Source of the DNA: a virus
IMG/VR virus record: IMGVR_UViG_3300011432_000008
Location: 1 to 48,372 of that record
DNA: 48,372 bases
Direction: 5' to 3' (one strand)
Made by a program: the position numbers and the translations under genes. Shown piece by piece: positions 4,101-45,454 of the stretch (position 1 is its first letter; each line of letters starts with the position of its first letter). The notes beneath the pieces were generated by a model. The model was not told the DNA's origin. It saw only the letters and a list, made by a program, of their open reading frames with translations, and did no database searches.

Positions 4101-4106
4101 TTGACC

Positions 4107-5363
4107 CTACCTAACAACCCAATTATCGATAGTTTTACCACCAGCAGCAGAAGGTTTATTACCTTCGTTTCCCATCCCACTCTTATACGTCTCTCCAAGT
4201 TTTGCTCTTAATTCTTCTTTAGCTTTTCTTACAGCAGGACTGTCTCCTGAGCCAAAATACTTTCCCGGCTCTTTATTAGGTTGAACAATAATACGATTAG
4301 TATTCTCATCTACATAATAAACCTTATCAGTATCATTATCGTCAATATCGTTAAGAGTGAGAATATCAGCTGCATCATTGTAAGCCTTTTGATTTACATC
4401 TCCGGGCTTTAGCTGCCTTGCTGCTGCTGCAAGTTTTCCGGCGGCCGTCTTAGCTCTAACATCAGCCCCATAATTCCTAGATTGGGCACCAATATTAGCA
4501 ATACTCTCATGGGATTTAGCAAGAGCAGCAGCAACATCTGCTTCTCTCTTAGTCTTTTCTTCACGAGATTCAGCAATCTTACCAAGCTCTTTACGTTCTC
4601 CTGTTACTGAATTCTCACCAATTCTCTTTCCAGTGGTTTCATCAGTATAGAAGTCCCATCCCTGAGCTTTGAGGGTATCTTCTCTATGCTTCTGATTGGC
4701 GTTGAATTCATCCTGCTTTTGCTTAAAGTCTCTTGTATCTCTTTCCTCACCACGCTCTAAATCAAAGCCTTTCAATCTCTGCTGAATATCTTCAGATTCC
4801 ATACCGGCTAAAGCTCCAACATTCTTGAGCTTATCTTGATATGTAGATTCGGCTTGATTGTATTTGTTATCTCGAATATCCCGTGCTACAGCTACACCTT
4901 TACCGGGGTCTCTAAATCCAGCAGAGAATCCACCTAAAGATGCAGCGATTCTATCAAATGCTCCGGGTTTGTAATCTTCACGTTTCGGAGCATTATTAAT
5001 CATATCCTCTAGAGCCTTCCTCTGAGGTCTATTCTGAATGATTTCATTGTATCTATCAAGAACTCCCGGTTTAGGAGCCACAGACGCAGTAGGCTCTCTA
5101 TAATCCGGCCCCGGCAGAGTATTAGCTATATCTCTAGCTTCGGGATTAAATGTCGGACGCGGATTAGCTCCACCCGGTTCAAATGGATTTTGCATTGGAT
5201 TCAGAGGCCCCTTTTGATTCATAAGGAGATTCTGACTCTGTAAAGGCATACCAGCAGGCTGAGCTTCAAAGGACGGAATAATAGGTTCACTAGCACCGCT
5301 AGTATATGGGTCATCTTCAAAGCCAAAAGTACGCTTAGGTGAAGGAGTGAATCTGGAATACAT
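4107..5363 (-). CDS. internal virion protein-like, 418 aa
   Basis: The start is set by GGAGG eight bases before the ATG at 5363 (MYSRFTPSPKRTF). The protein is Pro/Gly/Asn-rich for its first 130 residues, then has a long, highly charged helical/coiled-coil stretch rich in Lys, Glu, Gln and Ala (about 170-330). No enzymatic motif is visible. It sits between the Gly/Ala-rich 416-aa protein and the giant protein and is transcribed with them. This is the position and character of the three-protein ejection apparatus of podoviruses (T7 gp14-15-16 or P22 gp7-20-16). The role is inferred from position and composition only. Confidence 0.8.
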   Translation of the reverse strand: MYSRFTPSPKRTFGFEDDPYTSGASEPIIPSFEAQPAGMPLQSQNLLMNQKGPLNPMQNPFEPGGANPRPTFNPEARDIANTLPGPDYREPTASVAPKPGVLDRYNEIIQNRPQRKALEDMINNAPKREDYKPGAFDRIAASLGGFSAGFRDPGKGVAVARDIRDNKYNQAESTYQDKLKNVGALAGMESEDIQQRLKGFDLERGEERDTRDFKQKQDEFNANQKHREDTLKAQGWDFYTDETTGKRIGENSVTGERKELGKIAESREEKTKREADVAAALAKSHESIANIGAQSRNYGADVRAKTAAGKLAAAARQLKPGDVNQKAYNDAADILTLNDIDDNDTDKVYYVDENTNRIIVQPNKEPGKYFGSGDSPAVRKAKEELRAKLGETYKSGMGNEGNKPSAAGGKTIDNWVVR

Positions 5364-8298: not shown

Positions 8299-8861
8299 TA
8301 TACCAACTCACAGACTAAGTTAAAAATGACGGCCGCGCCATTAGTTACCACGGCCCAATTAGCACTATCTCTTTTCTTAAATTCAAGGAAGTTACCGGAG
8401 GCTCTAGAGATAGACTGACCTATATCTTGAGTTGCAAATCCATTATCTGTAACAACAGCCATTCCGAAACTATCTACTGGACCAAATGTTAATCCGGGAA
8501 CTGCTACTCTTAATCCACTTGAAGGTGTCCCAGAAATCGTAGTTGCTACAATAGAACCCTTAATAAAAACTACCTTACCAATTCTAAGATACTTAAAGTA
8601 AGCAACGTCTGCTGCATCAACAGTCCAAATCATTGAACCTGAAGCTGAAAAGACTAAATTAGCATGAGGAACAGAAGTCCATACTAAGTTATTATAGTTT
8701 GGAATAGCTGCATCACCAGCATCTACATACTGTTTATTCGCAATATCTAATGGCAAAGTAGGATTAGCAACTGGAAGATGATTAAAGAGCGTAGCTGGAC
8801 TCTCAGGAGATACTGCAATCTCCCAGATTTGAGTATTTTGGTTCCAACGAACGAATGACAT
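8298..8861 (-). CDS. tail fibre-associated protein, 187 aa
   Basis: Starts MSFVRWNQNTQIWEIA, with phage-fibre-like beta-strand repeats, then LPLDIANKQYVDAGDA, a pattern found at the head of many trimeric tail-fibre shafts. The rest is a beta-rich domain with Gly/Ser turns. Lying between the FN3-like protein and the collar protein, and overlapping both starts, it is likely an adaptor or short fibre. Exact role not established. Confidence 0.7.
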   Translation of the reverse strand: MSFVRWNQNTQIWEIAVSPESPATLFNHLPVANPTLPLDIANKQYVDAGDAAIPNYNNLVWTSVPHANLVFSASGSMIWTVDAADVAYFKYLRIGKVVFIKGSIVATTISGTPSSGLRVAVPGLTFGPVDSFGMAVVTDNGFATQDIGQSISRASGNFLEFKKRDSANWAVVTNGAAVIFNLVCELV

Positions 8862-10279
8862 TAAACTACTCCTCTAACTTTCCAAGAGAAGTTACAAGAA
8901 ATTCTATTACCTGCTGAATCGTATGCAAACACCTTGAACGAAACTCCAGTTACCTCATCAAAAACTAACGTAACAGGCTGAACAGTATCCGAGGTCATTG
9001 TAACTGAATTGACTCCTTTGAACACCTTATTTAGATTAATAAGAGTTCCAGTTACATCTGTTGCAACCGCTACTCCTGCTCCAGAATCTAACACTAACTG
9101 AGTAGAAATAGATACCTTAAGAGCAGTAAGGAATCCTAAATCTGCAGTATTAACATTAGTAAAAGTCCACCTAACCTTTACATACCTAACTGCTGTCGCA
9201 AGAACAGCGGGGCCGGGAGCAAAAGGTGTATAAGTAACATCATCAGTAGAATAAGCAATCTCAGTTCCAAATAGAGTATTTCCAATTATATTAAAAGATG
9301 AGAATGCTGCAACAATCGTTACGTTATTAAAGATAGAACCGAAGTTAAACTTCTCTTCATAATAGCCATCTGATACAGTTGGCTGAAGATAGTATGGGAA
9401 TCCAGCATTAAGCTGGTCTTGAATTGTATTCCAACCTTGTGATGTAAAGTGGGTCTGCCAAGTCTTAACATCATCAATAGGTCCAAGCACTCCCTCTGTT
9501 GCGTTATAGAATCCTCTTTTTGTTCTTACATAGATTCCATTGTAATTCGCAAAGAATGAGTTAATGAAGAATAAGTCAATCGGGTCATCTAACTCTAGTT
9601 CAATGCTTGCAGATAAGTCGCTTAAATTACCTACAATGTCCTGAGCTTGAACTTGAAAACTATAAGTTCCTCCAATTAAGACTGACGCTACTAGAAAGTT
9701 AGAGTCAATCTGAGCAATCTGAACTCCATCTTGAAAGACGTTATAGAATCTAATTCTCCAAGTAGAGAGTGGGACGGCCCAGCTTAAAAGAGCACTATTA
9801 CCGATAACTGTTCCCGTTAGAATTGGACCGGGAATAATTGGAACAACTAATACCGCGACGGCCGCGTTGACTGACTCCTCACCACTAAAATTAATACCTT
9901 TGATTAAGAATGTATGGCTTCCGATTGTTAAGTCTAATACAATCGGGTCCATATTCGCTACTAATGTAGCTGTCGATAAGACGAAATCAGCTGTTAACCA
10001 ACTAGTTCCTTTTCTTATCTCATAACCTACTGCATTCTCAGCAGGAAGCCATCTAGCTTGAAGATTAGTAGGGAATGCCTCTAATGTAAATCCAATTACA
10101 TCAGCTGGAACTCCTCTTTGAAACTCATCTAATCCAGCATCAATTCCACCGGGAGGAAATACTTCTCCATAAACTTCATATAAATCATCAACCAAAAGTT
10201 GTAGGGCTGCATACAACTTTGGGTCGTTCTGACTAACAGAACGGATTAAATTGCTAATCGTGCCTTGATTCTTATTCAA
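8861..10279 (-). CDS. tail/fibre protein with fibronectin-III-like domains, 472 aa
   Basis: Residues 1-50 are a helical anchor (NDPKLYAALQLLVDDLYEVY). Two Ig/FN3-like beta-sandwich stretches follow (VGYEIRKGTSWL and ALLSWAVPLSTWRIRFYNV), then a discoidin-like segment (YSTDDVTYTPF ... VRYVKVRWTF) that resembles carbohydrate-binding domains. The protein overlaps the nozzle gene by 8 nt and is probably attached to the tail, helping in host adhesion. Domain names are by pattern recognition, not by search. Confidence 0.7.
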   Translation of the reverse strand: MNKNQGTISNLIRSVSQNDPKLYAALQLLVDDLYEVYGEVFPPGGIDAGLDEFQRGVPADVIGFTLEAFPTNLQARWLPAENAVGYEIRKGTSWLTADFVLSTATLVANMDPIVLDLTIGSHTFLIKGINFSGEESVNAAVAVLVVPIIPGPILTGTVIGNSALLSWAVPLSTWRIRFYNVFQDGVQIAQIDSNFLVASVLIGGTYSFQVQAQDIVGNLSDLSASIELELDDPIDLFFINSFFANYNGIYVRTKRGFYNATEGVLGPIDDVKTWQTHFTSQGWNTIQDQLNAGFPYYLQPTVSDGYYEEKFNFGSIFNNVTIVAAFSSFNIIGNTLFGTEIAYSTDDVTYTPFAPGPAVLATAVRYVKVRWTFTNVNTADLGFLTALKVSISTQLVLDSGAGVAVATDVTGTLINLNKVFKGVNSVTMTSDTVQPVTLVFDEVTGVSFKVFAYDSAGNRISCNFSWKVRGVV

Positions 10280-12149
10280 CGCGCGATTTCCATTTCGGCT
10301 TCATCTCTACAATTAAAGAGAAAAGAGTGAAATGGTCTCCAGCATTATTGACTGTTCCAATACGGACAGTCATCTTCTCATTCATAAAATTAATCTTACG
10401 AGAGAACTCCCTTCCGGGAAGGATACCTAATGTAAACGCATTAGCAATAGATTGAGGTAATGTTCCATCCTCTCCCGCAATAAAAAGGTCTAATGCACCA
10501 GTTCCCCAAATTCGGAAATGTAGCTTTGCAAAATGATGAACCCATCCGGGCATTAATTGCATCGGGCCGAAATGGACAAATGAGTTAATTACAAATCCAT
10601 TATCAAGATACTGGAATGGAACCTGTTCGTGAACATCACCGTCTAATGAGCCATATTTAAAGGTAGCTCTTCCACCTAAATCAACATCTACTAGAATTGA
10701 CGATGGACGTTGTTGGAAGGTATTGATTGTCCATCTGACTTTTTTGGCGTCAATAAGGGCGTAATTCGATGTTGCATCGCTGAAATATCCTGCCAGCAAA
10801 TGAGAAACTTCTGTAGCTCCGTCAAGAGGTACCGCAGCATAAAGCACCTGATTTTCTACGTCTAAAGCTAACTGAACCTTATTAAATGCAGTTCGGGTAA
10901 CTCTCTTCCAAATATCTGCGATGTTATAAGTGAATTCGTTTCTCTTATAAACAGCAGACTCAAATAGAAAGATACCAGAGCCGTCCGCCTGAAAGAATCG
11001 CTCAGTCGTTCCACCTTTTGAGTCAATCCATTGTGCAATACCAAAACACTGGGTTCCTATTCCGGGGTCCAATGAATCAACAGGCCAATCAGATGGATTT
11101 TCGAGTATTCCTTGAGCAATATAGCTCCTATTACCCTTCGTAATTATCATTGAATTACGAAATTGAAGACCATTAGTACAGCCACTCTGTGCATCAGAGG
11201 GGTCGATGATTAGTCTAGAAAGAGTTGTATCGAATGATTCGTAATCTCTTTGCTTAGAAGAAAGAACAGAGTGAGCTGGATTATCAAATCCACCTAATGT
11301 CAATCTGTCTTGATAAGAGAAGATAAAAGTCCCAGCAGGAATCGTTGACATGAGGTCGAATAAATAATCTGCTGAGACGTATAATTCTGAATCATAGAAA
11401 TCTACTTCTACTGAAGTAGTAACATTATCAGGAATCCTTTGAGCGAAGAAATACTCTGGACTTAATTGATTTCCATCAAAATCTGGCTGAACTTGAGTAG
11501 CAATAACCCAACGGGCTACTGTTCCAGCTGGACCAATCGGAATATTACTTACAACTGCTTTGAAGTCTCCGGGAGCTTCATAGACTGTGAATATTTCTGG
11601 TCCCGGAGCAGTAATGAATCCTGTGTTCGTCTCAAAAGAGATTGCAAATAAATGAGTTCCTGCTTCGATATGTCCTGCGTTCGCCGATGTGACAACAGAA
11701 AGGACGAAAGCTGATGGTGGAGTTCCCGCAGCGAGTCGTATGGTTCCATCACCCTGATAGACATAAACACTTCCAATTCCCTTCACTCTATCGTGAAAGG
11801 TAATATAAGCTCTATTGTTAATATTGACTACTGAAAAATCTTCGAAAGCAACATTGGTAATAAGAGGTATTGCAAAAAGGCTATCAAAGAAATTACCAGC
11901 AGTATCAAGAACCAAGTACCTGCTTGTTTCATTCAGTCTCTTATAGAAGAAAGTTCTCCGAATATTCGGTTTTACGTAGATAGAGTCCATTCCAAAACGA
12001 GTAAAAATCTCGTCTGAACTAGGAATAGCTACATTTAGACAGTCCTGCATATATCCTTGAGGAACGGTATCGTGCTTACCATTCGCCCAAAGACCTTTGA
12101 ACTCTTTAATCTCTACAGGAGTGTGAATTTCTAAGCTAGTTTTTGGCAT
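10272..12149 (-). CDS. tail hub / nozzle protein, 625 aa
   Basis: The N-terminus (TPVEIKEFKGLWANGKHDTVP) and the repeated beta-blade pattern resemble the propeller-like tail hub proteins of podoviruses (T7 gp12 / P22 gp10 type), which close the portal channel and hold DNA. Phrases such as GDFKAVVSNIPIGPAG, YQDRLTLGG and RDYESF are characteristic of these long beta-propellers. It sits two genes after a gp4-like adaptor, as expected for the tail stack. The function is inferred from fold type and order. Confidence 0.7.
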   Translation of the reverse strand: MPKTSLEIHTPVEIKEFKGLWANGKHDTVPQGYMQDCLNVAIPSSDEIFTRFGMDSIYVKPNIRRTFFYKRLNETSRYLVLDTAGNFFDSLFAIPLITNVAFEDFSVVNINNRAYITFHDRVKGIGSVYVYQGDGTIRLAAGTPPSAFVLSVVTSANAGHIEAGTHLFAISFETNTGFITAPGPEIFTVYEAPGDFKAVVSNIPIGPAGTVARWVIATQVQPDFDGNQLSPEYFFAQRIPDNVTTSVEVDFYDSELYVSADYLFDLMSTIPAGTFIFSYQDRLTLGGFDNPAHSVLSSKQRDYESFDTTLSRLIIDPSDAQSGCTNGLQFRNSMIITKGNRSYIAQGILENPSDWPVDSLDPGIGTQCFGIAQWIDSKGGTTERFFQADGSGIFLFESAVYKRNEFTYNIADIWKRVTRTAFNKVQLALDVENQVLYAAVPLDGATEVSHLLAGYFSDATSNYALIDAKKVRWTINTFQQRPSSILVDVDLGGRATFKYGSLDGDVHEQVPFQYLDNGFVINSFVHFGPMQLMPGWVHHFAKLHFRIWGTGALDLFIAGEDGTLPQSIANAFTLGILPGREFSRKINFMNEKMTVRIGTVNNAGDHFTLFSLIVEMKPKWKSRVE

Positions 12150-15100: not shown

Positions 15101-16363
15101 CTACGCAGGAATATAACCTGTTGGAACCGCGAGATTATAGATGTAGCTCTGCGCGGCCGGGTTATCGGTATAGAGATTCCACGAAGCCACAATGTAGAAG
15201 ATTTGGCTCGTAGCAACTCCGCCTGATGCACCACGCATCTCAAAGATACGTCGTCCATCTACCTCATAGAATCCTGCTGGATGTAACTCAGCACGACCCC
15301 ATGTTTCCATCTTCATAATGTCGATGCGCTTTTTGTCGTTCGAATAATCCTGCTTAACAGGCGCACCAGCCATCCGGATGTTATCCGAGAAGTAAAGGTT
15401 CAGAGCTTCATCTGATGCCTGCTTCTGGATAATAGAAACGAGCTGACCCAAATCTTCATACGCCTGCACCTGACAAGGGTGCATACGTGCCTGAAGTTTA
15501 GTGCGTTCATTGATACCAACCCTATCACCGATAAGGTTAATAGCAAGACGCGGGAAAGGAAGTGCAAGTGCAGCACCACCAGCGTCAACACCGTTTGCAC
15601 GAATTTCCGGAGTAGTTGCTCGGTCGTAACCAAGCCACAGACCGACGGATGAATTAGAGATGTGATAGGGAATACCGAATAAGCCAGTAGGCGTTGGGCC
15701 ATTCAGACCTTCCGGAACAATCACATCACCACCAACCAAGCCTGCTACTGCGGGGAGAATACGAATAATAGCTGTATTCACATCGTAGTAGACAATCTTG
15801 GACGGATTTACCGTCTTCTGAGTTGCCATTGTGGAATTGTAGAAATTCACACGCTGACCAAACCTAAGCAGACGGATTTCGTATCCATCTGTATTAAGCT
15901 TTAACTCAGTAGTTCCACCCGGACCGGCGCCGGAAGTAGAAACAACGCCGATAACTCCGTTACCAGCAGTATGACACTGATTGTCACTCTGCTTACGGAA
16001 CTCTGGCATTGCTTTACTCATCAGCTCGCGGAAGGTGTTAATTACCGCTTTCTGAGTAGAATCAGTTCCCCATTCGGCTTTCTTGGTCCACTGAATACCA
16101 ATCTTAAAGTGATTAGTATTAATGACACCCTTCTGCCAATCTGGGCCAGAACCAACACCTAAATCTCCACCATCCGGCTCGTAATAGCCGAAATAGCCTC
16201 CCGGACGGAGATTCATTGGGATACGCATATCGCGTTCTGAAATAACTTCGACAGGACGCTTTTCAATTTCTGTATAGAAAAGGTCGTCTAAGTCATAGAG
16301 AACAGGCACCTTCTTGGTGACTTTCTCCATTTCAGTCGCGAGAACCGACTGTGAATTAACCAT
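15101..16363 (-). CDS. major capsid protein, 420 aa
   Basis: Identified by size, position after the scaffold-like gene and before the decoration-like gene, and its HK97-like pattern of a helical N-arm, extended loop (GGYFGYYEPDGGDLGVG) and long beta-rich body. Codons are richer in C/G endings than neighbours (for example CGC, ACC), fitting high expression. Residues 24-53 (DLDDLFYTEIEKRPVEV... MRIPMNLR) are closely matched by the C-terminus of the small Tat-signal protein at 44940. A hairpin terminator follows. Confidence 0.85.
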   Translation of the reverse strand: MVNSQSVLATEMEKVTKKVPVLYDLDDLFYTEIEKRPVEVISERDMRIPMNLRPGGYFGYYEPDGGDLGVGSGPDWQKGVINTNHFKIGIQWTKKAEWGTDSTQKAVINTFRELMSKAMPEFRKQSDNQCHTAGNGVIGVVSTSGAGPGGTTELKLNTDGYEIRLLRFGQRVNFYNSTMATQKTVNPSKIVYYDVNTAIIRILPAVAGLVGGDVIVPEGLNGPTPTGLFGIPYHISNSSVGLWLGYDRATTPEIRANGVDAGGAALALPFPRLAINLIGDRVGINERTKLQARMHPCQVQAYEDLGQLVSIIQKQASDEALNLYFSDNIRMAGAPVKQDYSNDKKRIDIMKMETWGRAELHPAGFYEVDGRRIFEMRGASGGVATSQIFYIVASWNLYTDNPAAQSYIYNLAVPTGYIPA

Positions 16364-16367
16364 TTAC

Positions 16368-17615
16368 CTATTTCCCCTTTTTGAATGTGATTTTGCCGTC
16401 TAAGATATCTCTGTCGGTTGTCTTAGAACGGTCAATATCTTTAGCATTCAAACTATGGTGAGTTTGAGTGGATAGATTAGTCGGAACTAATCGCTTCTTT
16501 TCTTGAGGCGCTTGTCTCCGACCAGTGGCTTCCTCTATAACTTTTTTCTTGGCAATAGGTAATACAGCTCTGGCTCGTGCTAGGTACGAGGATATGATTC
16601 TAGCTTTCCAATCGCTGGTATACTTAGCCGAACTTGCTTGATTGTAGAGACTTCGAGCACTTGCCTGATATCTTGCATCAGCAGCCATGATATTGTTGAC
16701 TTCGTTCTCAATGTCACGGGCGACATTCTTTCGTTTGTAACCGTCGAATTCATACTGCTCTAGTGTAGCAGAAATTTCTTTGTTGAGTTTGAATCGTAGC
16801 GATTCGATAACGCTATCATTAAATTCGCCGCGGATTCTTTCAGCGTGTTCGTCTCTCTCACGCTCAAGGCGCTCAACTTCTGGGTCTTTCTCTTTGGACT
16901 TCTTGGGGGCAGTATTAAGTTTCGGGTCATTACCAATTCCGTCACCCTCGAAGAAGAAATCATCCAAATAGAGAGCAGAGTTCATCAGGTTGTTATTACC
17001 GTTCTTCTTCGCCTGAATGTATGCCTGCTGTATAGCCCTCTTAATAGGAAGTGCAATGACTTCCGTGTATAGTTCCTTATTCTGTTCTAATAGTGCAGGT
17101 AATATGTTATGAGCGAGCTTTCCTAAAGAAGCCTTATCTGTTGCTTCAACAGCCTTAAGTAACTCAGCAGGATTACCTTCTAGGATATCCTGTTCTAACT
17201 TTCCGAAAGTATCGTTACGTTCTTTTGCAACTTCAGCTTCCTCTACTGTCGGATAGATAGTAGTATATCTCTGTTCCCTGAAGATAGTAGCTTTTAGCTC
17301 AGGGTATTTCTTGAATAACTCTGGATTTCCTTTCTTAATTGCCTGATAAAGCGAAATGTCGCCAGTTTCGCTATCATCGGAATCGTCCTCGGAATCCTCT
17401 CCAGATTCTTCATCATCAGAATCCGGCTCATCAATCTCGTCGGTTTCTTCCTCGCTGGCGGATTCATCTACTTCCTCGTTTTCTTCTTTGTCACCTTCAA
17501 AGGTTTCAACATCACCTTCGGGTTTATCATCAGCATTAAGAATGTCCATTTCGGCCGCGCCGGTAGGACGAGAAGTATCAATATTAGTTCCTGACGGAGT
17601 AGTAGTATCAGCCAT
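16368..17615 (-). CDS. acidic scaffold-like protein, 415 aa
   Basis: The first 90 residues are extremely acidic and Ser-rich (EENEEVDESASEEETDEID). The rest is helical, with a coiled-coil region (PEVERLERERDEHAERI) and a basic C-terminus (KITFKKGK). Scaffolding proteins between portal and MCP typically have an acidic disordered region, a helical core and a basic C-terminal capsid-binding end. It overlaps the portal gene by 8 nt and ends 4 nt before the MCP start. Confidence 0.7.
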   Translation of the reverse strand: MADTTTPSGTNIDTSRPTGAAEMDILNADDKPEGDVETFEGDKEENEEVDESASEEETDEIDEPDSDDEESGEDSEDDSDDSETGDISLYQAIKKGNPELFKKYPELKATIFREQRYTTIYPTVEEAEVAKERNDTFGKLEQDILEGNPAELLKAVEATDKASLGKLAHNILPALLEQNKELYTEVIALPIKRAIQQAYIQAKKNGNNNLMNSALYLDDFFFEGDGIGNDPKLNTAPKKSKEKDPEVERLERERDEHAERIRGEFNDSVIESLRFKLNKEISATLEQYEFDGYKRKNVARDIENEVNNIMAADARYQASARSLYNQASSAKYTSDWKARIISSYLARARAVLPIAKKKVIEEATGRRQAPQEKKRLVPTNLSTQTHHSLNAKDIDRSKTTDRDILDGKITFKKGK

Positions 17616-19926
17616 TTGCTTGTTCCTTTTCCTTTGGTTTCTCTTCGCCTTCTTCTGTTTCTTCGGGGGCCGGCATCATCATCTGATGTGCTTCAAAGTG
17701 CAACATACAGTTCTGATAACCAGCGGGATTCTCTGCCTTTAGCTTCTGACCTCTTGGACTATTTAGAATTGCAGATAGAATCTGCATATGAACCATATGA
17801 TTATCAATAGGTTCAGGCATAACAGATGGTTGCATCTGAATGCCAAGACTTGCAGGGTCTACTCCGGGCGGAAGTAAAGTCATCGGGTCAACGCCGGGAG
17901 GTAATTGCTGCTGTATTTCGGGCGGAATCATTGGCATTGGCTGAGCTTGACTTAACTGAATAAACTCAGAGTATTGCTTAGTTCTATCCTCCTCACCCGG
18001 AATATAAAGGTCGTGAAGTCCTACTGCCTTTTTCATCAACTGAGCATTATTAGCATCAAATAGGACGGCATTAATCTCAGGAGAGTTCATCTGCATCAGG
18101 TTAGTAACAACCTGATTGATTTGCTCCCAAGTTACTGGAAGTTGGTCACTTAATTCAGGTTCAGCTCGATTGACTTTACCAGTGTCAAGAGCCTTTTTAC
18201 TAATGTTGACGTTCTTGAATCCAGAGCCTTCTTTGGCGGTGAATCTTTCATCACCTTCCATAAAAGAAATGAACTCAGAAGTGGAACGAGTAATAACATC
18301 ACACCAAAACTCAGCAATAACCTTCCAAGTGATACCAAGACGTTGAAGGGCGTTGGCATTTGATTTTTTGTATTCGTAAGCAGTTCCACCTCCACCTTCA
18401 AGCGAGCCTCCATAGATTGAAGGGAAAGAACCTGTTACGAACTGTGCTCTTTGTGTAATATCTTTATTGTAAACTTCAATCTCTGAAGAGAGCGTAGCAG
18501 TCTTAGTTTGAAAGAAGCCCTCTCCAAGAGATTTACCGGGGTCGCTTCCTTTAGTTAAGGTAACTGAGCCCGGCCGCGCCATACTCTTATTATATTCGTC
18601 TAAGTCTAAGACTTCAGGCTTGACGAATGTTTCAGGAATACCGTGCTCAACAGTCTGGAGTCTTAATTCATCAATCTCTGCTTGTATATCTTGGGCTGTG
18701 GCAAGGTTAGTTCCAAGTGGTTCTCCATGTATAAAGGATGATAGAGGACTAATCGAGATTGTCCAGTGCTCATCCAACGCTTCTTTTGTAATATATTTAA
18801 GTTCATCATTAATGAAGATGCAATAACAGCCTTCGGGATAAAGAGCGAGAAGTTCGTTAATTTCTTTTTCTTTTCCGTCACCAAGAATATGAAACTGCCA
18901 AGGACGAAGCCAAAGACATTTGACTGAGGCGACGTTTTCAGGTGCGGCTCCAAAATAGTTTGTAGAGTTGCGTGCCCAATCCATCGAATCCTGATTGGTG
19001 TATGTGCCAATCTTATTGTCACGAAAAGATGACCGAACATAAGCAACGTTCTGAGAGAAGTTAAGTAAGAGGTAGCCACAATTAACTTGCTCTTTTGCAT
19101 AGATGCTCACTTTAACTGAACGAGGGTCGAATACGTCGATTAGAACTCTACCTTTATTAACTTTCTCAACTCCAGTTTGAACTTCCATTTCGGCCATTAC
19201 AGGCTGAGAAACTGGAGGAGCAACCTGACCACACTGGTCACAAGGAAGTGGCTCTAAAATAGGTTCAGGAGTTTGTCCATATTCATAGTCGCAAACTGGA
19301 CAGGTATTAGAAAACTCAGGAATCTGAATAGTTTCAATCTTCGGCTTATGAATGATTCCGTATTTCTCGTCAGTTCTATAATAGTTATATGCGAAGATAG
19401 TGCCGTGATTGAAAAATACAGCTAAAGCCCGCATGAAAATCATTGGGGCTTTAATATGCTTCTGAATTAATGCTGAAACTTGCGAGTGTGCGTCGGCCGC
19501 TTCAATATCGAGCGGATTCTCTGCATCATCTGGAAAGAATACAACCGAAGGGACAGTTGTTGATAAAGCAGCAATAATGGCTTCAGCGTGTGCTCTATAT
19601 ATAGCGATAATACGAGGAGGAATATTAAGGTCGTCATCGTTTTCCAATGAATCCCAGTCGGGAATTCTCCACCCACCAAGTCCTCCTCCCATTCCAGCAT
19701 CCCAGAATAAGGCAATAATGTTATTGAAATAATACTCTAATCTGGCCCATTTCTGAATCATGGCCCAGTAAACGCCTTGGTCTTCTCTTTCGCAAATCCT
19801 TAAGATTTGTAGAACTTCTCCTTGTAACTCCTCAGAGATAGGAAGATTAGGGTCTTGCTTATCTTCAAGACCTACAGGGTCAACTGGAGGATTAGGAGTA
19901 GATGGAGCTACAGTTAAGTCTTCCAT
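17608..19926 (-). CDS. portal protein, 772 aa
   Basis: Follows large terminase and precedes scaffold and MCP. The N-terminal part (ARLEYYFNNIIALFWDAG) and later ITQRAQFVTGSFPSIYGG, with a long helical C-terminus ending in Met/Pro/Gln-rich sequence (PPEIQQQLPPGVDPMTLLPP), fit large podovirus portal proteins (P22-type portals exceed 700 residues). Unusually, residues about 185-225 carry CPVC ... CDQC, a zinc-ribbon insertion. It forms the dodecameric DNA gate at one capsid vertex. Confidence 0.8.
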   Translation of the reverse strand: MEDLTVAPSTPNPPVDPVGLEDKQDPNLPISEELQGEVLQILRICEREDQGVYWAMIQKWARLEYYFNNIIALFWDAGMGGGLGGWRIPDWDSLENDDDLNIPPRIIAIYRAHAEAIIAALSTTVPSVVFFPDDAENPLDIEAADAHSQVSALIQKHIKAPMIFMRALAVFFNHGTIFAYNYYRTDEKYGIIHKPKIETIQIPEFSNTCPVCDYEYGQTPEPILEPLPCDQCGQVAPPVSQPVMAEMEVQTGVEKVNKGRVLIDVFDPRSVKVSIYAKEQVNCGYLLLNFSQNVAYVRSSFRDNKIGTYTNQDSMDWARNSTNYFGAAPENVASVKCLWLRPWQFHILGDGKEKEINELLALYPEGCYCIFINDELKYITKEALDEHWTISISPLSSFIHGEPLGTNLATAQDIQAEIDELRLQTVEHGIPETFVKPEVLDLDEYNKSMARPGSVTLTKGSDPGKSLGEGFFQTKTATLSSEIEVYNKDITQRAQFVTGSFPSIYGGSLEGGGGTAYEYKKSNANALQRLGITWKVIAEFWCDVITRSTSEFISFMEGDERFTAKEGSGFKNVNISKKALDTGKVNRAEPELSDQLPVTWEQINQVVTNLMQMNSPEINAVLFDANNAQLMKKAVGLHDLYIPGEEDRTKQYSEFIQLSQAQPMPMIPPEIQQQLPPGVDPMTLLPPGVDPASLGIQMQPSVMPEPIDNHMVHMQILSAILNSPRGQKLKAENPAGYQNCMLHFEAHQMMMPAPEETEEGEEKPKEKEQANG

Positions 19927-27036: not shown

Positions 27037-27300
27037 TTAGAGCGATTGCTCTAATGAATAACTGAGGAACGAGGAAGAAATAAGTAAACCAAGTACTTCT
27101 AACACCCTTTTGTGTAGTAGGGGTTCATAAGGAGTCGAGGCCAAATTATTAAATTTTATTATAAAAAACTACACAGTTTGTATCGCAATCCTAGAGACCG
27201 ATACAGACCATCTAATCTACGGGCCTGAGAAACCTTTAGATTGGAGTAATGTTGAAGTAACGGGTGAAAATACCCAATCTACCTTCAACATCCACATTCT
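27037..27300 (+). ncRNA. structured leader/ncRNA with at least five stems
   Basis: No gene fits in 27022-27327. Stems seen: TTAGAGC/GCTCTAA (27037-27054), TGTGTAGT/ACTACACA (27111-27118 with 27168-27175), TGTATCG/CGATACA (27179-27205), CTAATCT/AGATTGG (27212-27244), ATGTTGAA/TTCAACAT enclosing GGGT/ACCC (27249-27291). The series sits directly before a 54-aa gene with a strong ribosome site, so a riboswitch-like leader or stable RNA is likely. Known families were not recognised. Confidence 0.5.
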
Positions 27301-27327
27301 TATTAGTAAGCAAGAAGGGAGGATTAC

Positions 27328-27492
27328 ATGGTCATTTCAACAGTTTGTTCAGCGGACGATTTGGAATCAACAATCGCCACTGAAAAGAGACTTGGAAAGA
27401 AGATTCTGGCAGTTGCACCGGCACAGCTGAAAAAGCTTTCCACTCGCTCACTTGAGTTCACAGTGACTCATTACGTAGTAGTCACTCAGTAG
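27328..27492 (+). CDS. small protein, 54 aa
   Basis: GGGAGG precedes the ATG. MVISTVCSADDLESTIATEK... ; helical Lys/Leu-rich middle (KKILAVAPAQLKKLST) and Val/Thr-rich end. Not recognised. A CGTAGT/ACTACG stem spans its stop codon, and a GATAGCTTT/AAAGCTATC hairpin (about 27509-27532) and a GTTTCACT/AGTGAAAC hairpin (about 27543-27570) follow. This small gene therefore has folded RNA on both sides. Confidence 0.6.
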   Translation: MVISTVCSADDLESTIATEKRLGKKILAVAPAQLKKLSTRSLEFTVTHYVVVTQ

Positions 27493-38335: not shown

Positions 38336-38620
38336 ATGAACCTTGAAGAACAGGGAATTGTATCCACGATTGAGGAAGCTAATAGGAGATTTAACGAGCT
38401 TCTATTATTGGACCCAGAGACAGGTATGCCTCCAAAGCAAATTTGTTATGGGATTCATTTTCCTCAAGATACTAATAAGCAATTAATCCAGACTATTTGT
38501 GATACTTTTAAGCATAGTTATCAGTTCTACTCAGTAGATGGCTTAACAGTATTCGATATGAGGGATAAGGGTGCCACTGTTGGATACATGGTTTACCTGT
38601 TTAAGAAAAGTTTACTCTGA
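38336..38620 (+). CDS. hypothetical protein, 94 aa
   Basis: MNLEEQGIVSTIEEANRRFN...; helix, then PKQICYGIHFPQDTNKQLIQ and a beta-rich end (VDGLTVFDMRDKGATVGYMV). Not recognised. Starts two bases after the membrane protein's stop. Confidence 0.6.
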   Translation: MNLEEQGIVSTIEEANRRFNELLLLDPETGMPPKQICYGIHFPQDTNKQLIQTICDTFKHSYQFYSVDGLTVFDMRDKGATVGYMVYLFKKSLL

Positions 38621-38662
38621 TTGCTTAACCAGTTAGTCCCTGTCTGGGTAATTAGAGTGAAA

Positions 38663-38733
38663 ATGGATTCCTACGAATACACTCGGAATAAGTAGGTCGT
38701 GACAAGCACGAGGCCCGTCCATCGAGTTCTTTT
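38663..38733 (+). ncRNA. pseudoknotted RNA element, copy 1
   Basis: P1 ATGGAT/GTCCAT (38663-38668 with 38717-38722), P2 CCTAC/GTAGG (38670-38674 with 38692-38696), P3 TCGTG/CACGA (38697-38711). The P2 loop ACTCG (38681-38685) can pair with CGAGT (38723-38727) just 3' of P1, making a pseudoknot; TTCTTTTT follows. The P2 loop GAATAyACTCGGAATAA is almost identical in copy 2 while P3 differs. No known family recognised. Confidence 0.6.
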
Positions 38734-38898
38734 TGAGATTTACTCTTAGTAGGGTTCTAACTGAACAGAGTAAATAGTCAGACGGATACTGACTTAAAAC
38801 AAAGCAACGTCTTAATTTGTGGTGACTCGACGTTAAATAGTAACCACCGTGACTCATAATGTTGGATACGATAATACCAACAGGTTTATCAGATACCT
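38734..38898 (+). other. non-coding folded region
   Basis: Hairpins seen: TTTACTCT/AGAGTAAA (about 38738-38775), AGTCAG/CTGACT (about 38776-38795), AACGTC/GACGTT (about 38808-38836), GTGGT/ACCAC (about 38819-38848), TGTTGG/CCAACA just before the next gene. No promoter with good boxes was found. Confidence 0.45.
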
Positions 38899-39099
38899 AT
38901 GAGTGAAATTACTGATACGTGTCTTTGCGGCGTTGGGTTCTCACGTAAAATGAACTCACCACAATTTGGGTGTATTCACCCAAGATTGGTAGCTGTGCCG
39001 AAAGGGAGCGAACTACCAAACAATAGTTTCCTAGCCGGTTCTATGAATCAAAAACCGGTCTCTTTAACTAGGAGAGATAAAAATGATTACCGAATCTGA
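38899..39099 (+). CDS. hypothetical protein, 66 aa
   Basis: MSEITDTCLCGVGFSRKMNS...; CLC and a later Cys (FGCIHP) may bind metal. No clear ribosome site. Overlaps the Acb2-like gene by 17 nt. Perhaps part of the same anti-defence unit; no direct evidence. Confidence 0.5.
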   Translation: MSEITDTCLCGVGFSRKMNSPQFGCIHPRLVAVPKGSELPNNSFLAGSMNQKPVSLTRRDKNDYRI

Positions 39100-39295
39100 T
39101 TTAGATGTATGGTTCTCTTATCACGCACCAACCGAGGACCAAAAAGCTCGATATGTAGAGATTCGTGCTGCTGCAAAGAGTTTAGCTCAGTGTATCTTAG
39201 CTAATACTCCGAATAGTGCAGACCAATCAGCAGCTATTCGTAAAGTCCGCGAAGCTGTAATGACTGCTAATGCAGCAATCGCTTGCGGAGAGTAA
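39083..39295 (+). CDS. acb2: Acb2-type cyclic-nucleotide sponge (anti-CBASS), 70 aa
   Basis: The sequence shows the Acb2/Tad1-hairpin signature: FSYHAPTEDQKARYVEIR, then KSLAQCILANTP, then AIRKVREAVMTANAAIA at the C-terminus. Proteins of this family form hexamers that bind CBASS cyclic di- and trinucleotides (and some bind Thoeris signals), keeping them from defence effectors. Length is normal. AGGAGAG lies before the ATG. It is followed two bases later by a deoxyribosyltransferase-like gene, giving a small nucleotide-handling unit. Assignment is by motif memory. Confidence 0.85.
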   Translation: MITESDLDVWFSYHAPTEDQKARYVEIRAAAKSLAQCILANTPNSADQSAAIRKVREAVMTANAAIACGE

Positions 39296-39296
39296 G

Positions 39297-39674
39297 ATGA
39301 AAGTCTACATAGCAACCTCTTTTCACGATAAAGAATACGTCAAGCAAGTAGCTATGATTCTTGACGAAGCAGGACATACCATTACTTATCCGTGGTGGTA
39401 TTCCAAAGAAGCTACAACTCAGGAGGCTGAGAAAGACCTTCAAGCTATTGAGGATTGTAATATAGTTCTTGGTTTGTTCGAGAAGCCCTATATCTACAAA
39501 GGCTCAATCTTCGAGTTAGGAATTGCCTACGCAATTCATAGGCCGATTCTTATTATTGGTAACGAGTTAGATAGCATGGTCTTTATGCTTCTTCCCGGAG
39601 TTACCAAAGTAAAGAATCTCAAGCAAGCTCTCAAAGTTATGAAAGACAAGATTAAGCAGGATGAGCCTGTTTAA
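39297..39674 (+). CDS. nucleoside 2-deoxyribosyltransferase-like protein, 125 aa
   Basis: Start ATG 39297 with CGGAG upstream. MKVYIATSFHDKEYVKQVAM is the typical first strand and helix, followed by YPWWY, DCNIVLGLFE and KGSIFELGIAYAIHRPILII, where the Glu in FELG corresponds to the catalytic nucleophile. Family enzymes exchange or hydrolyse bases on 2'-deoxynucleosides or nucleotides. Being next to the Acb2-like sponge it could act in nucleotide salvage or against nucleotide-based defence. The latter is inference. Confidence 0.8.
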   Translation: MKVYIATSFHDKEYVKQVAMILDEAGHTITYPWWYSKEATTQEAEKDLQAIEDCNIVLGLFEKPYIYKGSIFELGIAYAIHRPILIIGNELDSMVFMLLPGVTKVKNLKQALKVMKDKIKQDEPV

Positions 39675-41288: not shown

Positions 41289-43778
41289 GTGGATTACTGC
41301 CCCGGAACAGGGAATCTCCGTTCAAAAATCATGTTGATTGGCGATTGGGCCGGTCAATCTGAGATTAATCAAAAAGAATCTCTAGTAGGTGCTACTGGAG
41401 AGATTCTAGATAGAGTTTTCTCTGAAATAGGACAACCAGATTATCGTACTGAATTCTATTTCAGTAATGTCTACAAATATCATCCCGGTAATATCTACGG
41501 AGCATTAGATAAGAATGTATTAGCAGACTCTACCCGTAAGCTCTGGGCAGAGATACAAGAGGTAAATCCAAATGTAATAGTTACGTTAGGAGAACTTCCC
41601 CTAAACGTAGTATGCGGTGTAAAAAAGGTAATGACCTATCGTGGTACGGTATTACCTAACGATAAATTTGGCTATCTTCCTAAAGTAATTCCTACCATAC
41701 ATCCTTTGCATCTGGCAATGCCTACTAAGGCAAGCGGAGATTACTTCGAGACAAAGAAGCTATACAATGGAATATGGAGAACTATCCTTCAATTAGATTT
41801 AGCTAAAGCACTAGAAGAAGCCAAGACTAGAGAGTTCCATCCACCTGACAGATTACTAAGAGTTGCAACTAGTTCGTTAGATGTAATTAGGTTCTTTAGA
41901 GAAAACAAAGGAAGGACACCGTATGCTGACGTGGAAACTTATAGGAGTACTCTTTGTAGCTGTCTTGGCATTAGTTTTGATAAATACGAAGGACTCTCAA
42001 TCCCCCTCTTCCAAAAAGTAGGAGATATAAAGCTATGCGGAATACCACACTCAGACCTCGCAAGAATATGGCAAGAAATACAAGAGCTATTCAATCGAGT
42101 AAAGATAGCCGGCCAAAACCTGAAGTTCGACCAAGCAAAATTGGAACTATTAGGTTTCCGAATGGCAGTACTTTCAGATGTTATGTTGAAGGCACACACA
42201 GTCAATTCAGAGCTGCCTGCCTTCAGTCTAAGTTTTTTGTCATCCATCTGGACAAAGGAACCATACTACAAAGACGAGGGAAAGGAATTCAATCCAGCGA
42301 AACACGACATACGGCGATTATTTTTATATAACGCTAAAGACTGCGTTGTAACTGCCGAGATTGACGAAGCTCTTGAGCTTGAATTGAGGGAGCTTAGTGA
42401 TGAATACCATACTGATTTAGTAGGGTTCTATTACAACTATGTAGTTCCTCAGCATCAATTCTATTTTGACCTTGAAAAGGTCGGATTCAATATAGATGAT
42501 GGAATGAGGAATTATCTAGTTATGAAGTATGAGACTTGGAGAGATATTCTTCAAGTAAAGTTAGACACGGCCGCCCAGCGCAATATAAACATTAATTCTC
42601 CTAAGCAAGTAAACGAGTTTCTCTACGGAACCCTTAGATTACCTCCTTCTTACAATAAAAAGGGAAAGCTAAAGGGTGATGAGGATGCTATTGCCCAATT
42701 ATTAAAGAATCGAGTTCGTAATGAGTCAAAAAGAGAAATCCTCAACTCTATCCTCGAATTTAGAAGAGTTAGTAAAACCCTTTCTACCTACTTGCTTTGT
42801 AAAAGAGATTACGACGGAAGGATACGTAGTCAATATCGAATTATTGGTACGGAGACAGGACGTTCCAGCACTTCTATCCTTAGTGAACCAGTCAGGCCAG
42901 AAGACATTGGTCTTGCGTTTCAAACAATTACAAAACACGGAGACATTGGAAATGACGTCCGCTCTTATCTTGTCCCCAGACCCGGATACGATTTAGTTAA
43001 CGTAGATTTAGGTCAAGCAGAAGCGAGGGTAGTCTGTGTCCTCTGTAAAGATTGGGTCTTATTGGACGCTTTTGATTCGATTGACATTCATCGCAGGACT
43101 GCTTGGCTTGCTTTGGTATCTGGCATTCTTGACTTAAGTAAGGGAAAGCATGAATCTGATGCTTTAGGTAAGGATTCAGCAGAGCGATTTATAGGTAAAA
43201 AGACTCGTCACGCTGGAAACTATAACATGAAATGGCGAGAGTTTATGTCTAACGTCATTTCTGATTGTAGAAGGTTCGGAATAGATTTCACAATATCAAG
43301 GTTCCTAGCTGAAAAGATATTAGAGCGATTCCATGCAGCTTCACCTAAGATTAGGGAAGTATTCCATGCTGAAATTAAGGACGCTATTGATACGAGTCGC
43401 GCTCTGGTTACTCCGTATGGCCGTCTCAGGAGATTTTACGATAGGGCTTCAGATAGATTGTATGGAGAAGCATTTGCTGACATACCGCAAGATACTGTTA
43501 AGCAAAGACTTACTAGAGCTGGATTTAAGATTAAGCAAGAGGCGCCCTCCGTATTATTCTGTGGGGAAGCTCATGATTCTCTTACGATGCAAATACCGCG
43601 TGGAGAAGTAGTTGGGATTTGTAGGGAAGTAATAAGGCCCGCTCTAATGGAGCCTATTGACTTCAATAACTGCACGTTGAAACGGGACTTCAAGTTAGTT
43701 ATTCCATGTGATTTTGAGCATGGAGATAACTATAAAGATTTGGTCAAATTGGATGTCATGGATAAATCTGCTGCATGA
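41289..43778 (+). CDS. polA: family A DNA polymerase with UDG-like N-terminus, 829 aa
   Basis: GTG start. Residues 1-165 resemble a family 4/5 uracil-DNA glycosylase (SLVGATGEILDRVF, FYFSNVYKYHPGN, VIVTLGELPL, IPTIHPLHLA), but the first motif reads GDWAGQSE. A DnaQ-type 3'-5' exonuclease follows: ADVET (about 213), NLKFDQ (about 277), YNAKDC (about 345). The polymerase has motif A VDLGQAEAR (about 571), motif B KKTRHAGNYNMKWREF (about 638) and motif C AHDSL (about 760). No 5' nuclease domain. It is the replicative polymerase. The fused glycosylase-like domain could detect uracil or serve as a clamp-like part. Confidence 0.9.
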   Translation: MDYCPGTGNLRSKIMLIGDWAGQSEINQKESLVGATGEILDRVFSEIGQPDYRTEFYFSNVYKYHPGNIYGALDKNVLADSTRKLWAEIQEVNPNVIVTLGELPLNVVCGVKKVMTYRGTVLPNDKFGYLPKVIPTIHPLHLAMPTKASGDYFETKKLYNGIWRTILQLDLAKALEEAKTREFHPPDRLLRVATSSLDVIRFFRENKGRTPYADVETYRSTLCSCLGISFDKYEGLSIPLFQKVGDIKLCGIPHSDLARIWQEIQELFNRVKIAGQNLKFDQAKLELLGFRMAVLSDVMLKAHTVNSELPAFSLSFLSSIWTKEPYYKDEGKEFNPAKHDIRRLFLYNAKDCVVTAEIDEALELELRELSDEYHTDLVGFYYNYVVPQHQFYFDLEKVGFNIDDGMRNYLVMKYETWRDILQVKLDTAAQRNININSPKQVNEFLYGTLRLPPSYNKKGKLKGDEDAIAQLLKNRVRNESKREILNSILEFRRVSKTLSTYLLCKRDYDGRIRSQYRIIGTETGRSSTSILSEPVRPEDIGLAFQTITKHGDIGNDVRSYLVPRPGYDLVNVDLGQAEARVVCVLCKDWVLLDAFDSIDIHRRTAWLALVSGILDLSKGKHESDALGKDSAERFIGKKTRHAGNYNMKWREFMSNVISDCRRFGIDFTISRFLAEKILERFHAASPKIREVFHAEIKDAIDTSRALVTPYGRLRRFYDRASDRLYGEAFADIPQDTVKQRLTRAGFKIKQEAPSVLFCGEAHDSLTMQIPRGEVVGICREVIRPALMEPIDFNNCTLKRDFKLVIPCDFEHGDNYKDLVKLDVMDKSAA

Positions 43779-44943
43779 AGCAACCTTGGATGCAGAAACA
43801 CCAAGGTCATTTATTCTATGGAGTGGTATATGTTCAATTTCCGCGGTAGTTAGCCCAAACGTCTGGTTAAATAAGGCCGGAAAGTATCATTTATCTCCTA
43901 ATATCTACTGCTTACTAGTAGCTAAAAGTGGATTAGGCAAGAGTTTGCCTATTTCTATGGCTAAGAAACTAGTAACAATGGTAGGTAATACTCGCGTAAT
44001 CTCTGGAAGAAGCACTATTCAGAAGATTATCATGGACTTGAGTAAGAGTGAAACCGATGAAAAAACAGGAATTGCCAGATTCAAAGATGCTAGAGGGTTT
44101 ATTGTCTCGGGTGAGTTTTCTGTATCAATGCAATCCGACACCGATTTATTCACAATCCTCACAGATATTTATGATACTCACGCAAACGCTGACGGTTGGG
44201 TTAATTCTACTAAAGCAGGAGGAGCAGAGTACCTCAAAGCCCCTTGCGTCACTTTATTTTCAGGAAGTAGTCCCGAACACTTTGAGGAGTTTGTTCCAAA
44301 AGTCAATATTGCTGGAGGATTTATCGGACGAACTCTTCTTATATATGAAGAAAAACGATGGAGATTGAATCCTCTTGTAGATGAGGATATGGCCGATATT
44401 GACTTTGTTAAATTATCTTGTCATCTTAAAAAATTAAAGGATTTATCAGGTGGATTTAAGTGGACTCCTACAGCAAAGAAGGTTTATATAGATTGGTATG
44501 AAGATTTTAGACCTCGTGACCATGATGATAAAACAGGAACAGCAGAGAGATTTCCTGACCATATCTTAAAAGTAGCTATGTGCCTGAGTTTAAGTAAGGG
44601 AGTAGAGCTAATCTTACGAGAAGAGGACATTTCTGAGGCACTTAAATTATGCATGAAATTAAGGCACTCTGTTAAGGTATTAACTTCGAGTTCTGGTAAG
44701 TCTAATACGGCCGCCCAGACTCGCGCTGCATTAGAATTAATCTTAAAGTCACCTGAAGGGAAGATTTCTAGAGAATACCTGCTACAGAGAGGATTTGGAG
44801 ACTTCAATTCTACTGAATTAGACCAGATTGTAGAGACTCTAATTCAGTCAGGCTTTATACAACAGACCGGAACTAAAGTAATTGTTTATTCAATTAGTGA
44901 ACGTGGTAAACAGATATGGGAACAAGCTAAGGAGAAGTCATGA
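43720..44943 (+). CDS. DUF3987-type ATPase (primase-helicase-like), about 407 aa
   Basis: The N-terminal segment (LHEATLDAETPRSFILWSGI) and VWLNKAGKYHLSPNIYCLLV match DUF3987-type proteins, with Walker A AKSGLGKS. The C-terminus has a winged-helix look (REYLLQRGFGDFNSTELDQI). Starts at 43708 (GTG), 43720 or 43753 are possible, all overlapping the polymerase; none has a good ribosome site. DUF3987 proteins often act as replicative helicase-like ATPases in phages and plasmids. Ends by ATGA overlap with the Tat-signal gene. Confidence 0.75.
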   Translation: MEITIKIWSNWMSWINLLHEATLDAETPRSFILWSGICSISAVVSPNVWLNKAGKYHLSPNIYCLLVAKSGLGKSLPISMAKKLVTMVGNTRVISGRSTIQKIIMDLSKSETDEKTGIARFKDARGFIVSGEFSVSMQSDTDLFTILTDIYDTHANADGWVNSTKAGGAEYLKAPCVTLFSGSSPEHFEEFVPKVNIAGGFIGRTLLIYEEKRWRLNPLVDEDMADIDFVKLSCHLKKLKDLSGGFKWTPTAKKVYIDWYEDFRPRDHDDKTGTAERFPDHILKVAMCLSLSKGVELILREEDISEALKLCMKLRHSVKVLTSSSGKSNTAAQTRAALELILKSPEGKISREYLLQRGFGDFNSTELDQIVETLIQSGFIQQTGTKVIVYSISERGKQIWEQAKEKS

Positions 44944-45233
44944 TTCATCGTAGAAACTTCCTGAGACTCTTGGCGGCCGGATTGGTAGGCCATACTCTCG
45001 ATATTGATAAACTCCTATGGGTTCCGGGAGCTAAGACTTTCTTTCTTCCTTCTGCTAGACAGTTACTTCTTCATGATATTATAACTGATGAAGTAGGCAA
45101 ATACTATAGTCAATTAGACGGCAGTCTATTTGATAGAGATGAGGTATTTTATCATCAACTAATGCGTCGTGGAACAGAAGTAATCTCAGTAAGAGAAATG
45201 CGAATTCCGTTGAAAGTTAGAGGTGACAAGTGA
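44940..45233 (+). CDS. Tat-signal protein with MCP-like C-terminus, 97 aa
   Basis: Starts MIHRRNFLRLLAAGLVGHTL, a canonical twin-arginine (RRxFL) signal with hydrophobic core, then DIDKLLWVPGAKTFFLP. Residues 65-94 (DRDEVFYHQLMRRG ... VREMRIPLKVR) align without gaps to MCP residues 24-53, with 15 of 30 identical, including FY, EVIS and MRIP. It is not a recent DNA duplication, since the nucleotide sequences differ. It lies in the replication block, far from the capsid gene. Function unknown; it may recognise the MCP partner surface. Confidence 0.75.
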   Translation: MIHRRNFLRLLAAGLVGHTLDIDKLLWVPGAKTFFLPSARQLLLHDIITDEVGKYYSQLDGSLFDRDEVFYHQLMRRGTEVISVREMRIPLKVRGDK

Positions 45234-45454
45234 TTGGACAAGTGTCAAGAATTTTTCCGGGTAAAGGCTATGGATTTATTAAGACCGAAGAAAATGATGA
45301 GTTCTTCTTCCATATGAGCGCATTGAGAGGTATAGATTGGGATAAACTAGTTGAACTCTGTAACAACAAAGAGGGGCCAATAGTGTACTTCAAAGAAATG
45401 AAGCACAATAGAGGCCCCAGAGCGATTAACGTAGAGTTAGTTCCTAACGGTTAA
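45230..45454 (+). CDS. cold-shock-domain protein, 74 aa
   Basis: A GTG start in a GTGA overlap with the previous gene. MIGQVSRIFPGKGYGFIKTE... carries the RNP1 motif KGYGFI and RNP2 FFFHMSAL of cold-shock proteins, followed by a slightly longer loop and a last strand (PRAINVELVP). Binds single-stranded RNA or DNA. Last rightward gene; its 3' end overlaps the giant protein gene on the other strand by 11 bp. Confidence 0.88.
   Translation: MIGQVSRIFPGKGYGFIKTEENDEFFFHMSALRGIDWDKLVELCNNKEGPIVYFKEMKHNRGPRAINVELVPNG

Follow-up and report, generated by a model that had tools for sequence, protein, structure and literature searches.

Small phage genes that join a Tat-type N-terminal module to copied segments of the major capsid protein

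Introduction

What is a small protein that begins like an export signal and ends like the phage's own major capsid protein (MCP) doing among the replication genes? The question is raised by a gene in a window of 48,372 nucleotides, the whole stretch of viral DNA analysed here (IMG/VR record IMGVR_UViG_3300011432_000008). The MCP is both a common trigger of bacterial immunity and a target of capsid-hijacking satellites. A sequence-only reading of the window had proposed a capsid-arm mimic with an export signal; the comparisons below support this description at the sequence level, and extend it far beyond the window phage to a family of homologues.

Results

The mini-protein gene and the MCP in the window

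The open reading frame at 44,940–45,233 on the plus strand encodes a mini-protein of 97 amino acids (MIHRRNFLRLLAAGLVGHTLDIDKLLWVPGAKTFFLPSARQLLLHDIITDEVGKYYSQLDGSLFDRDEVFYHQLMRRGTEVISVREMRIPLKVRGDK), with exactly the coordinates first assigned to it, and is backed by IMG/VR homologues and their alignment. Its N-terminal module (N-module; MIHRRNFLRLLAAGLVGHTLDIDKLLWVPG; 44,940–45,029, plus strand) consists of a twin arginine, a short hydrophobic stretch, and a DxDKLLWVPG motif, and is followed by a capsid-mimic tail, residues 46–94 (45,075–45,221, plus strand). The gene stands between replication genes in the replication arm of the genome and overlaps both neighbours by 4 bp. The stop codon of the upstream DUF3987/primase-helicase-like gene (43,708–44,943, plus strand; Pfam PF13148, phrog_14296) overlaps its start in ATGA, and the start codon of the downstream cold-shock-domain gene (45,230–45,454, plus strand; Pfam PF00313) overlaps its stop in GTGA, an arrangement that looks, from the sequence, as in a translationally coupled operon. 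Further upstream on the same strand, a single protein (41,289–43,778) combines a family A DNA polymerase with an N-terminal uracil-DNA-glycosylase-superfamily domain and an exonuclease domain (PF03167, PF01612, PF00476), and a nucleoside 2-deoxyribosyltransferase-like protein (39,270–39,674) is also weakly TIR-like (PF05014, PF13676). The mini-protein has no significant family match in PHROGs, Pfam, or NCBIfam, and its predicted structure contains three helices only, at low confidence (pLDDT 61, pTM 0.27).

The 420-residue protein encoded at 15,101–16,363 on the minus strand is, on its predicted fold, an HK97-fold MCP, because its model matches this fold, a relative matches phrog_14242 ("major head protein"), and the late cluster that holds its gene also includes a terminase. 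The AlphaFold model (pLDDT only 61) is matched by Foldseek to the shells of SU10, phiRSA1, and HK97 with a probability of 1.00 and low TM-scores of 0.3–0.4. The protein belongs to a conserved family, of which 17 members were aligned.

The tail and the N-arm of the MCP

Residues 63–94 of the mini-protein (45,126–45,221, plus strand), the strongest ungapped part of the tail, align with MCP residues 22–53 (16,205–16,300, minus strand) at 16 identical positions out of 32 (BLASTP, E = 5e-10). The alignment originally claimed, 15 of 30 identical residues over MCP 24–53, was therefore correct and even understated. When the whole contig was searched, the mini-protein matched itself and the MCP arm only (E = 5e-7). 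The observed score of the tail against the arm was 89, the best shuffled tail scored 38, and none of the 200,000 shuffles reached the observed value. An HMM-HMM comparison of the two segments, a check that the sequence-only reading had proposed, was highly significant, with the tail aligned to MCP 1–56 over 56 columns (hhalign probability 99.1, E = 5.4e-19). Chance similarity is thus ruled out by the shuffles, the E-values, the profile comparison, and the 14 of 14 matches to the contig's own MCP described below. At the DNA level, the two segments are only 55% identical, and the same codon is used at five of the 16 shared residues; hence the likeness is old and not a recent copy, and recent gene conversion as the source of the tail is ruled out by the nucleotide identity. 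With this evidence, it is nearly certain that the mini-protein is an N-module joined to a copy of a capsid segment.

The same reading had pointed to homologues without the MRIP region as evidence against the match. Five of the 18 aligned N-arm versions do stop before MRIP, but those five retain the first half of the arm. The N-arm is, moreover, merely one of several mimicked segments, because other homologues copy quite different pieces of the MCP.

The Tat-like N-module

The module consensus is RRx[FL][LF], a hydrophobic stretch, and DxEKLLWVPGxKTIFLPP. The twin arginine is present in 65/65 distinct N-modules, though RR was absent from the search patterns, and F or L occupies the two positions after RRx in most of them. 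Across the 18 aligned N-arm versions, the invariant residues are R4, R5, D21, D23, L25, L26, W27, P29, G30, K32, and F35 in the front part and I47, E51, F64, D67, F70, and Y71 in the tail. The N-module had been called a textbook twin-arginine signal; the RR motif stands, but the word "textbook" does not, as the window protein reaches 13.7 bits against the Pfam Tat model, whose cut-off is 22.7, and has no match in NCBIfam. Among ten proteins run against the Tat models, two relatives just reach TIGR01409 and none reaches the Pfam cut-off. The module thus shares RRx[FL][LF] and a short hydrophobic stretch with Tat signal peptides (PF10518, TIGR01409), but it differs from them in falling mostly below the model cut-offs, in the conserved DxEKLLWVPGxKTIFLPP that follows, and in having no evident cleavage site. 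An AxA-type signal-peptidase site was seen in one of the 65 modules, in a single examined register that was probably off by one. To our knowledge, no host Tat substrate carries DxEKLLWVPGxKTIFLPP. The association of the Tat-like start with MCP mimicry is strong (Fisher 6e-89) though partly circular, since most of the contigs had been collected through the LLWxPG motif.

Homologues in uncultured phages

All homologue sequences are metagenomic, and the N-module motif was the means of finding most of the contigs. The first homologues, two from an IMG/VR protein search and a third from records holding MCP relatives, each have their own arm. Approximately 70 contigs were then retrieved with DNA patterns for D[IV][DE]KLLW[VI]PG and looser forms, and script checks on them showed the mini-protein layout of RRxFL, hydrophobic stretch, and DxEKLLWVPGxKTIFLPP followed by a variable tail. 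The homologues occur in dozens of other uncultured phages, and the mini-protein is shown by these sequence comparisons to belong to a large unnamed family of small accessory phage proteins, with a putative Tat-type peptide and an interchangeable tail. A tblastn search of the cultured phages in INPHARED with four queries gave no match, and neither such proteins nor phage-encoded MCP decoys were described in the open-access papers searched. The family is thus unmatched in the databases and open-access papers searched. The same N-module (MDRRGFLQNAMLAAAALAMDPERLLWTPGKQTIFIPP) is also found at 578–1,126 (plus strand) of L180, a single real, unannotated contig from a genome scan that is binned to a Terrimicrobiaceae MAG, a possible clue to the host.

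Whether phages with this MCP type always carry the gene had been posed as a further check. They do not: G005 and G007, of 46–47 kb and with the same MCP family, are without any, and the mini-protein genes are accessory, not universal. In the contigs with the window's type of MCP (family 1), the gene and the MCP are on opposite strands in 14/14 cases. On contigs with P22-like capsids, it lies on the MCP strand in eight of nine, so early expression is not general.

Purifying selection acts on the mini-protein tails. In the G029/G037 pair, the N-module differs by nine synonymous changes and no amino-acid change, and the tail has dN 0.035 and dS 0.38 (dN/dS ~0.09); other gene pairs also have dN/dS below 0.5. 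In several pairs, the N-module is more alike than the tail at silent sites, with a divergence of 0.13 against 0.66 in G046/G050, which suggests, at the level of sequence, that tails are swapped behind a shared N-module by recombination. The difference is large in G046/G050, G058/CL204, and G049/G051.

Tails copy different segments of the phage's own MCP

Within each contig, the tail was matched against every large ORF, with shuffled tails as the background. The MCP was the tail's best match in all 14 family-1 contigs with both genes (p <= 1.2e-6). The N-arm is copied in 11 of these 14, and a segment at ~224–263 in the other three (G004, G019, and G053; for example, SLYGIPYHHSNATTHVWLGFERQ against SLFGVPYHNNNASTGTWLGFDR). 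In nine further contigs with P22-like capsids, the tail matches its own MCP at p < 1e-3, the copied piece being the N-arm, a mid segment (GDVITLSGVFAVNPMTGE..QQFVIT), or a C-terminal segment (GISMRLVKDWDI...). The winning ORF is one of MCP size in each contig, and those that are annotated, a subset, are major head proteins; in the P22-like contigs they belong to phrog_283, a family with a PDB alignment to the gene 5 coat protein. G034 provides the one case of copying from a third capsid family, phrog_371. The copied pieces have 25–60 residues and reside in separate, diverged genes. The tail of G026 copies two separate MCP segments, and long versions in CL214 and CL114 join the Tat-type start and MCP 6–140 to ~355–401. 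Approximately half of the tails have no significant match to their own MCP, and some contigs lack a recognisable MCP; some of the unmatched tails may copy something other than the MCP. The N-modules of L084/L071, L077, L079, L101, and G035/G038 carry tails without a match among the capsid proteins found here; these tails may copy other proteins or unrecognised capsids.

Tails are as close to the MCPs of relatives as to their own, which is not the best match in most cases, and the preference for own over relative amounts to a lineage signal only (p = 0.008). Strict self-specificity was not supported, the own MCP being first or tied first in two of 11 cases with a mean normalised rank of 0.30.

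To control for specificity, 15 window proteins were turned into profiles and run against all ORFs shorter than 250 residues in 77 contigs. The MCP profile found more than 30 small distant ORFs, confined to windows 4–61, 224–297, and 331–397, and a more sensitive run added window 389–417. The profiles of portal, terminase, scaffold, polymerase, DUF3987, SNF2, exonuclease, and ATPase found no more than edge or adjacent fragments in the 77 contigs. General shuffling of structural genes is ruled out by the 14 control profiles, which returned only ordinary tail-domain paralogues and contig-edge fragments; one tail protein in the control shares its C-terminal domain with ordinary tail genes. The C-terminal domain of the window's tail gene at 10,272–12,149 (minus strand) recurs as a separate gene of ~100 residues in G009, G011, G014, and G045–G054. 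The copied MCP windows are more conserved than the remainder of the protein, with 0/419 circular shifts as extreme. That the mimicked segments are the AlphaFold-disordered parts of the MCP was not significant in the same kind of test (90/419).

Several mimics in one phage

Different capsid pieces occur in neighbouring genes in G045, G053, G054, G056, G033, and G041. Genes found by the MCP profile only, without the LLWVPG motif, often have a Tat-like start too and tend to adjoin a standard mini-protein. Mimics of this kind with a Tat-type start copy MCP 389–417 in G045 (3,772–4,206), G053 (15,717–15,929), and G056 (8,361–8,588) and MCP 229–297 in G054 (27,077–27,424); those with a Tat-like start also include one mimic in G034 (8,659–9,234), one in G033 (1,573–2,199), and two in G041 (16,364–17,176 and 18,322–19,158). 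The stretch at 15,820–19,158 (minus strand) of G041, which includes locus L174, holds five consecutive small genes with Tat-like starts (15,820, 16,364, 16,980, 17,781, and 18,322), of which at least two have P22-like capsid pieces.

A second design without a Tat-type start joins GGDLG (MCP 60–72) to FYEVDGxxLFEMRGASGG (363–396), in one order in G053 (15,218–15,544) and G021 (11,100–11,429) and in the other order in G004 (38,554–38,919). In the window, a protein of 94 residues (38,336–38,620, plus strand) contains FYSVDGLTVFDMR, which resembles FYEVDGRRIFEMR at MCP ~364–377. It is the best window match after the mini-protein (hmmsearch E = 0.048 at a search size of roughly the small ORFs of one genome), and the same MCP segment is copied significantly in G004, G021, and G053. 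The resemblance is suggestive only of a second, weaker capsid mimic on the same operon side of the genome.

Discussion

Our preferred reading, held tentatively and at somewhat less than even chances, is that the mini-protein acts as a capsid decoy or competitor, whose Tat-type peptide may hold or export a bound partner at the inner membrane. A protein that usually recognises the MCP would be offered a capsid element by the tail and, through the Tat-type peptide, be kept or exported at the membrane, away from the cytoplasmic assembly sites. The likeliest partners would be host capsid-sensing defence proteins or capsid-hijacking satellite factors, with the capsid protein of related phages next in line. 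Both CapRel (PMC9712102) and Thoeris (PMC11312562) are known to be triggered by the MCP, and the staphylococcal Thoeris senses the MCP hexamer (PMC11312562); Tat can transport bound partners (PMC4273604). We favour a decoy because the tail is a piece of the phage's own MCP in the 14 family-1 and nine P22-like contigs, because the copying is MCP-specific, draws on conserved windows, and is maintained by purifying selection, because the genes are accessory, lie opposite the MCP in family 1, and set several differing mimics side by side, and because the Tat-type start recurs even in mimics without LLWVPG. On the other side, short linear pieces may lose the epitope read by a sensor, and an exported tail would leave the compartment of capsid proteins and sensors unless it were tethered or served as a carrier. 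The equal closeness of the tails to relatives' MCPs and the position of the P22-like genes, mostly on the MCP strand (8/9), also speak against a decoy.

The strongest alternative, possible but rated below the decoy, is that these are dominant-negative peptides, the tail binding the MCP at a putative inter-subunit contact that it copies and blocking or diverting the assembly of superinfecting or co-infecting relatives, while the Tat-type peptide pulls MCP to the membrane. The conservation of the copied segments across the family and the weak preference for the own MCP, through which relatives would be affected, both suit such a capsid poison; the long versions in CL214 and CL114 amount to an internally deleted capsid protein, and precedents exist in Ty1 p22 (PMC4599808, PMC8458377), Ccm (PMC8569155), and the prophage protein Tab (PMC10884400). 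However, the phage's own assembly should be poisoned too, and low model confidence over the copied segments, taken as a sign of contact elements, was not significant (90/419 shifts). The decoy is slightly favoured over the poison because an early poison harms its owner and no immunity partner was identified.

A role in the phage's own assembly, with the mini-protein as a membrane-bound nucleator or chaperone whose capsid-like contacts initiate or position procapsids, is improbable in our estimate. The tail resembles elements of the phage's own MCP, the start would, from its sequence, target the membrane, and the P22-like genes are often found on the strand of the head genes, a few kb upstream of them; but G005 and G007 have the same MCP without the gene, the copied segments vary between phages, and the family-1 genes lie on the strand opposite the MCP. 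The sequence-only reading had suggested that the protein could compete in capsid assembly, tether capsids to the membrane, or act in immunity or exclusion; exclusion, or counter-defence, suits the accessory spread, the opposite strand in family 1, and the window gene's place in the replication arm better than an assembly cofactor does. Slightly less probable still is a regulatory or other use of the capsid element with no binding competition, such as periplasmic or vesicle display, which would suit the export-type signal but leaves MCP elements outside the cytoplasm, where they have no known partner. Functionless, decaying fragments of a duplicated capsid gene would account for the varying lengths of the pieces and for those that are joined or permuted (CL214, CL114, CL109, and G026), but are highly improbable given the strong purifying selection (dN/dS), the invariant N-module, the gene-sized ORFs in operons, and the confinement of copied windows to conserved MCP parts.

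In general terms, and with marginally less confidence than for the mini-protein itself, phages may encode modular, export-tagged capsid mimics, in which a Tat-type module repeatedly captures conserved elements of the phage's own MCP as membrane-dragging decoys against defence, hijacking, or rival capsids. A widespread family that copies conserved MCP elements, one per gene and membrane-tagged, would point to an unrecognised layer of phage conflict, and its tails would be ready-made peptides for finding the capsid elements that are recognised and their recognisers. Many small "hypothetical" phage genes can be read by comparison with the structural proteins of their own genome.

Capsid-derived interfering factors are known from other elements. 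The p22 protein of Ty1, encoded by the element itself, is a fragment of Gag that prevents particles from assembling (PMC4599808, PMC8458377), and, like this p22/p18 copy-number-control factor, the mini-proteins are separate products with sequence derived from the capsid protein of the element that encodes them. However, p22 is approximately half of Gag, arises from an internal transcript, and is identical in sequence, with inhibition shown, whereas the mini-proteins carry pieces of 25–60 residues in separate diverged genes behind a Tat-type peptide. The Ccm protein of SaPIbov5 is a satellite-encoded capsid-protein homologue that redirects assembly and forms the pentamers of a small shell (PMC8569155); here, too, a mobile element encodes a relative of a phage capsid protein, but the mini-proteins are short mimics encoded by the phage itself. 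The prophage protein Tab blocks tail assembly by targeting the tail tape measure protein (PMC10884400). Like the mini-protein, it is a small phage-encoded protein that could act on the virion assembly of other phages, although the abstract describing it reports neither capsid mimicry nor a Tat signal. CapRel (PMC9712102) and Thoeris (PMC11312562) recognise the MCP and are plausible targets of a decoy; they are host sensors, whereas the mini-proteins are encoded by phages, and if the decoy reading is true, this would be the first known phage use of capsid mimicry against capsid recognition.
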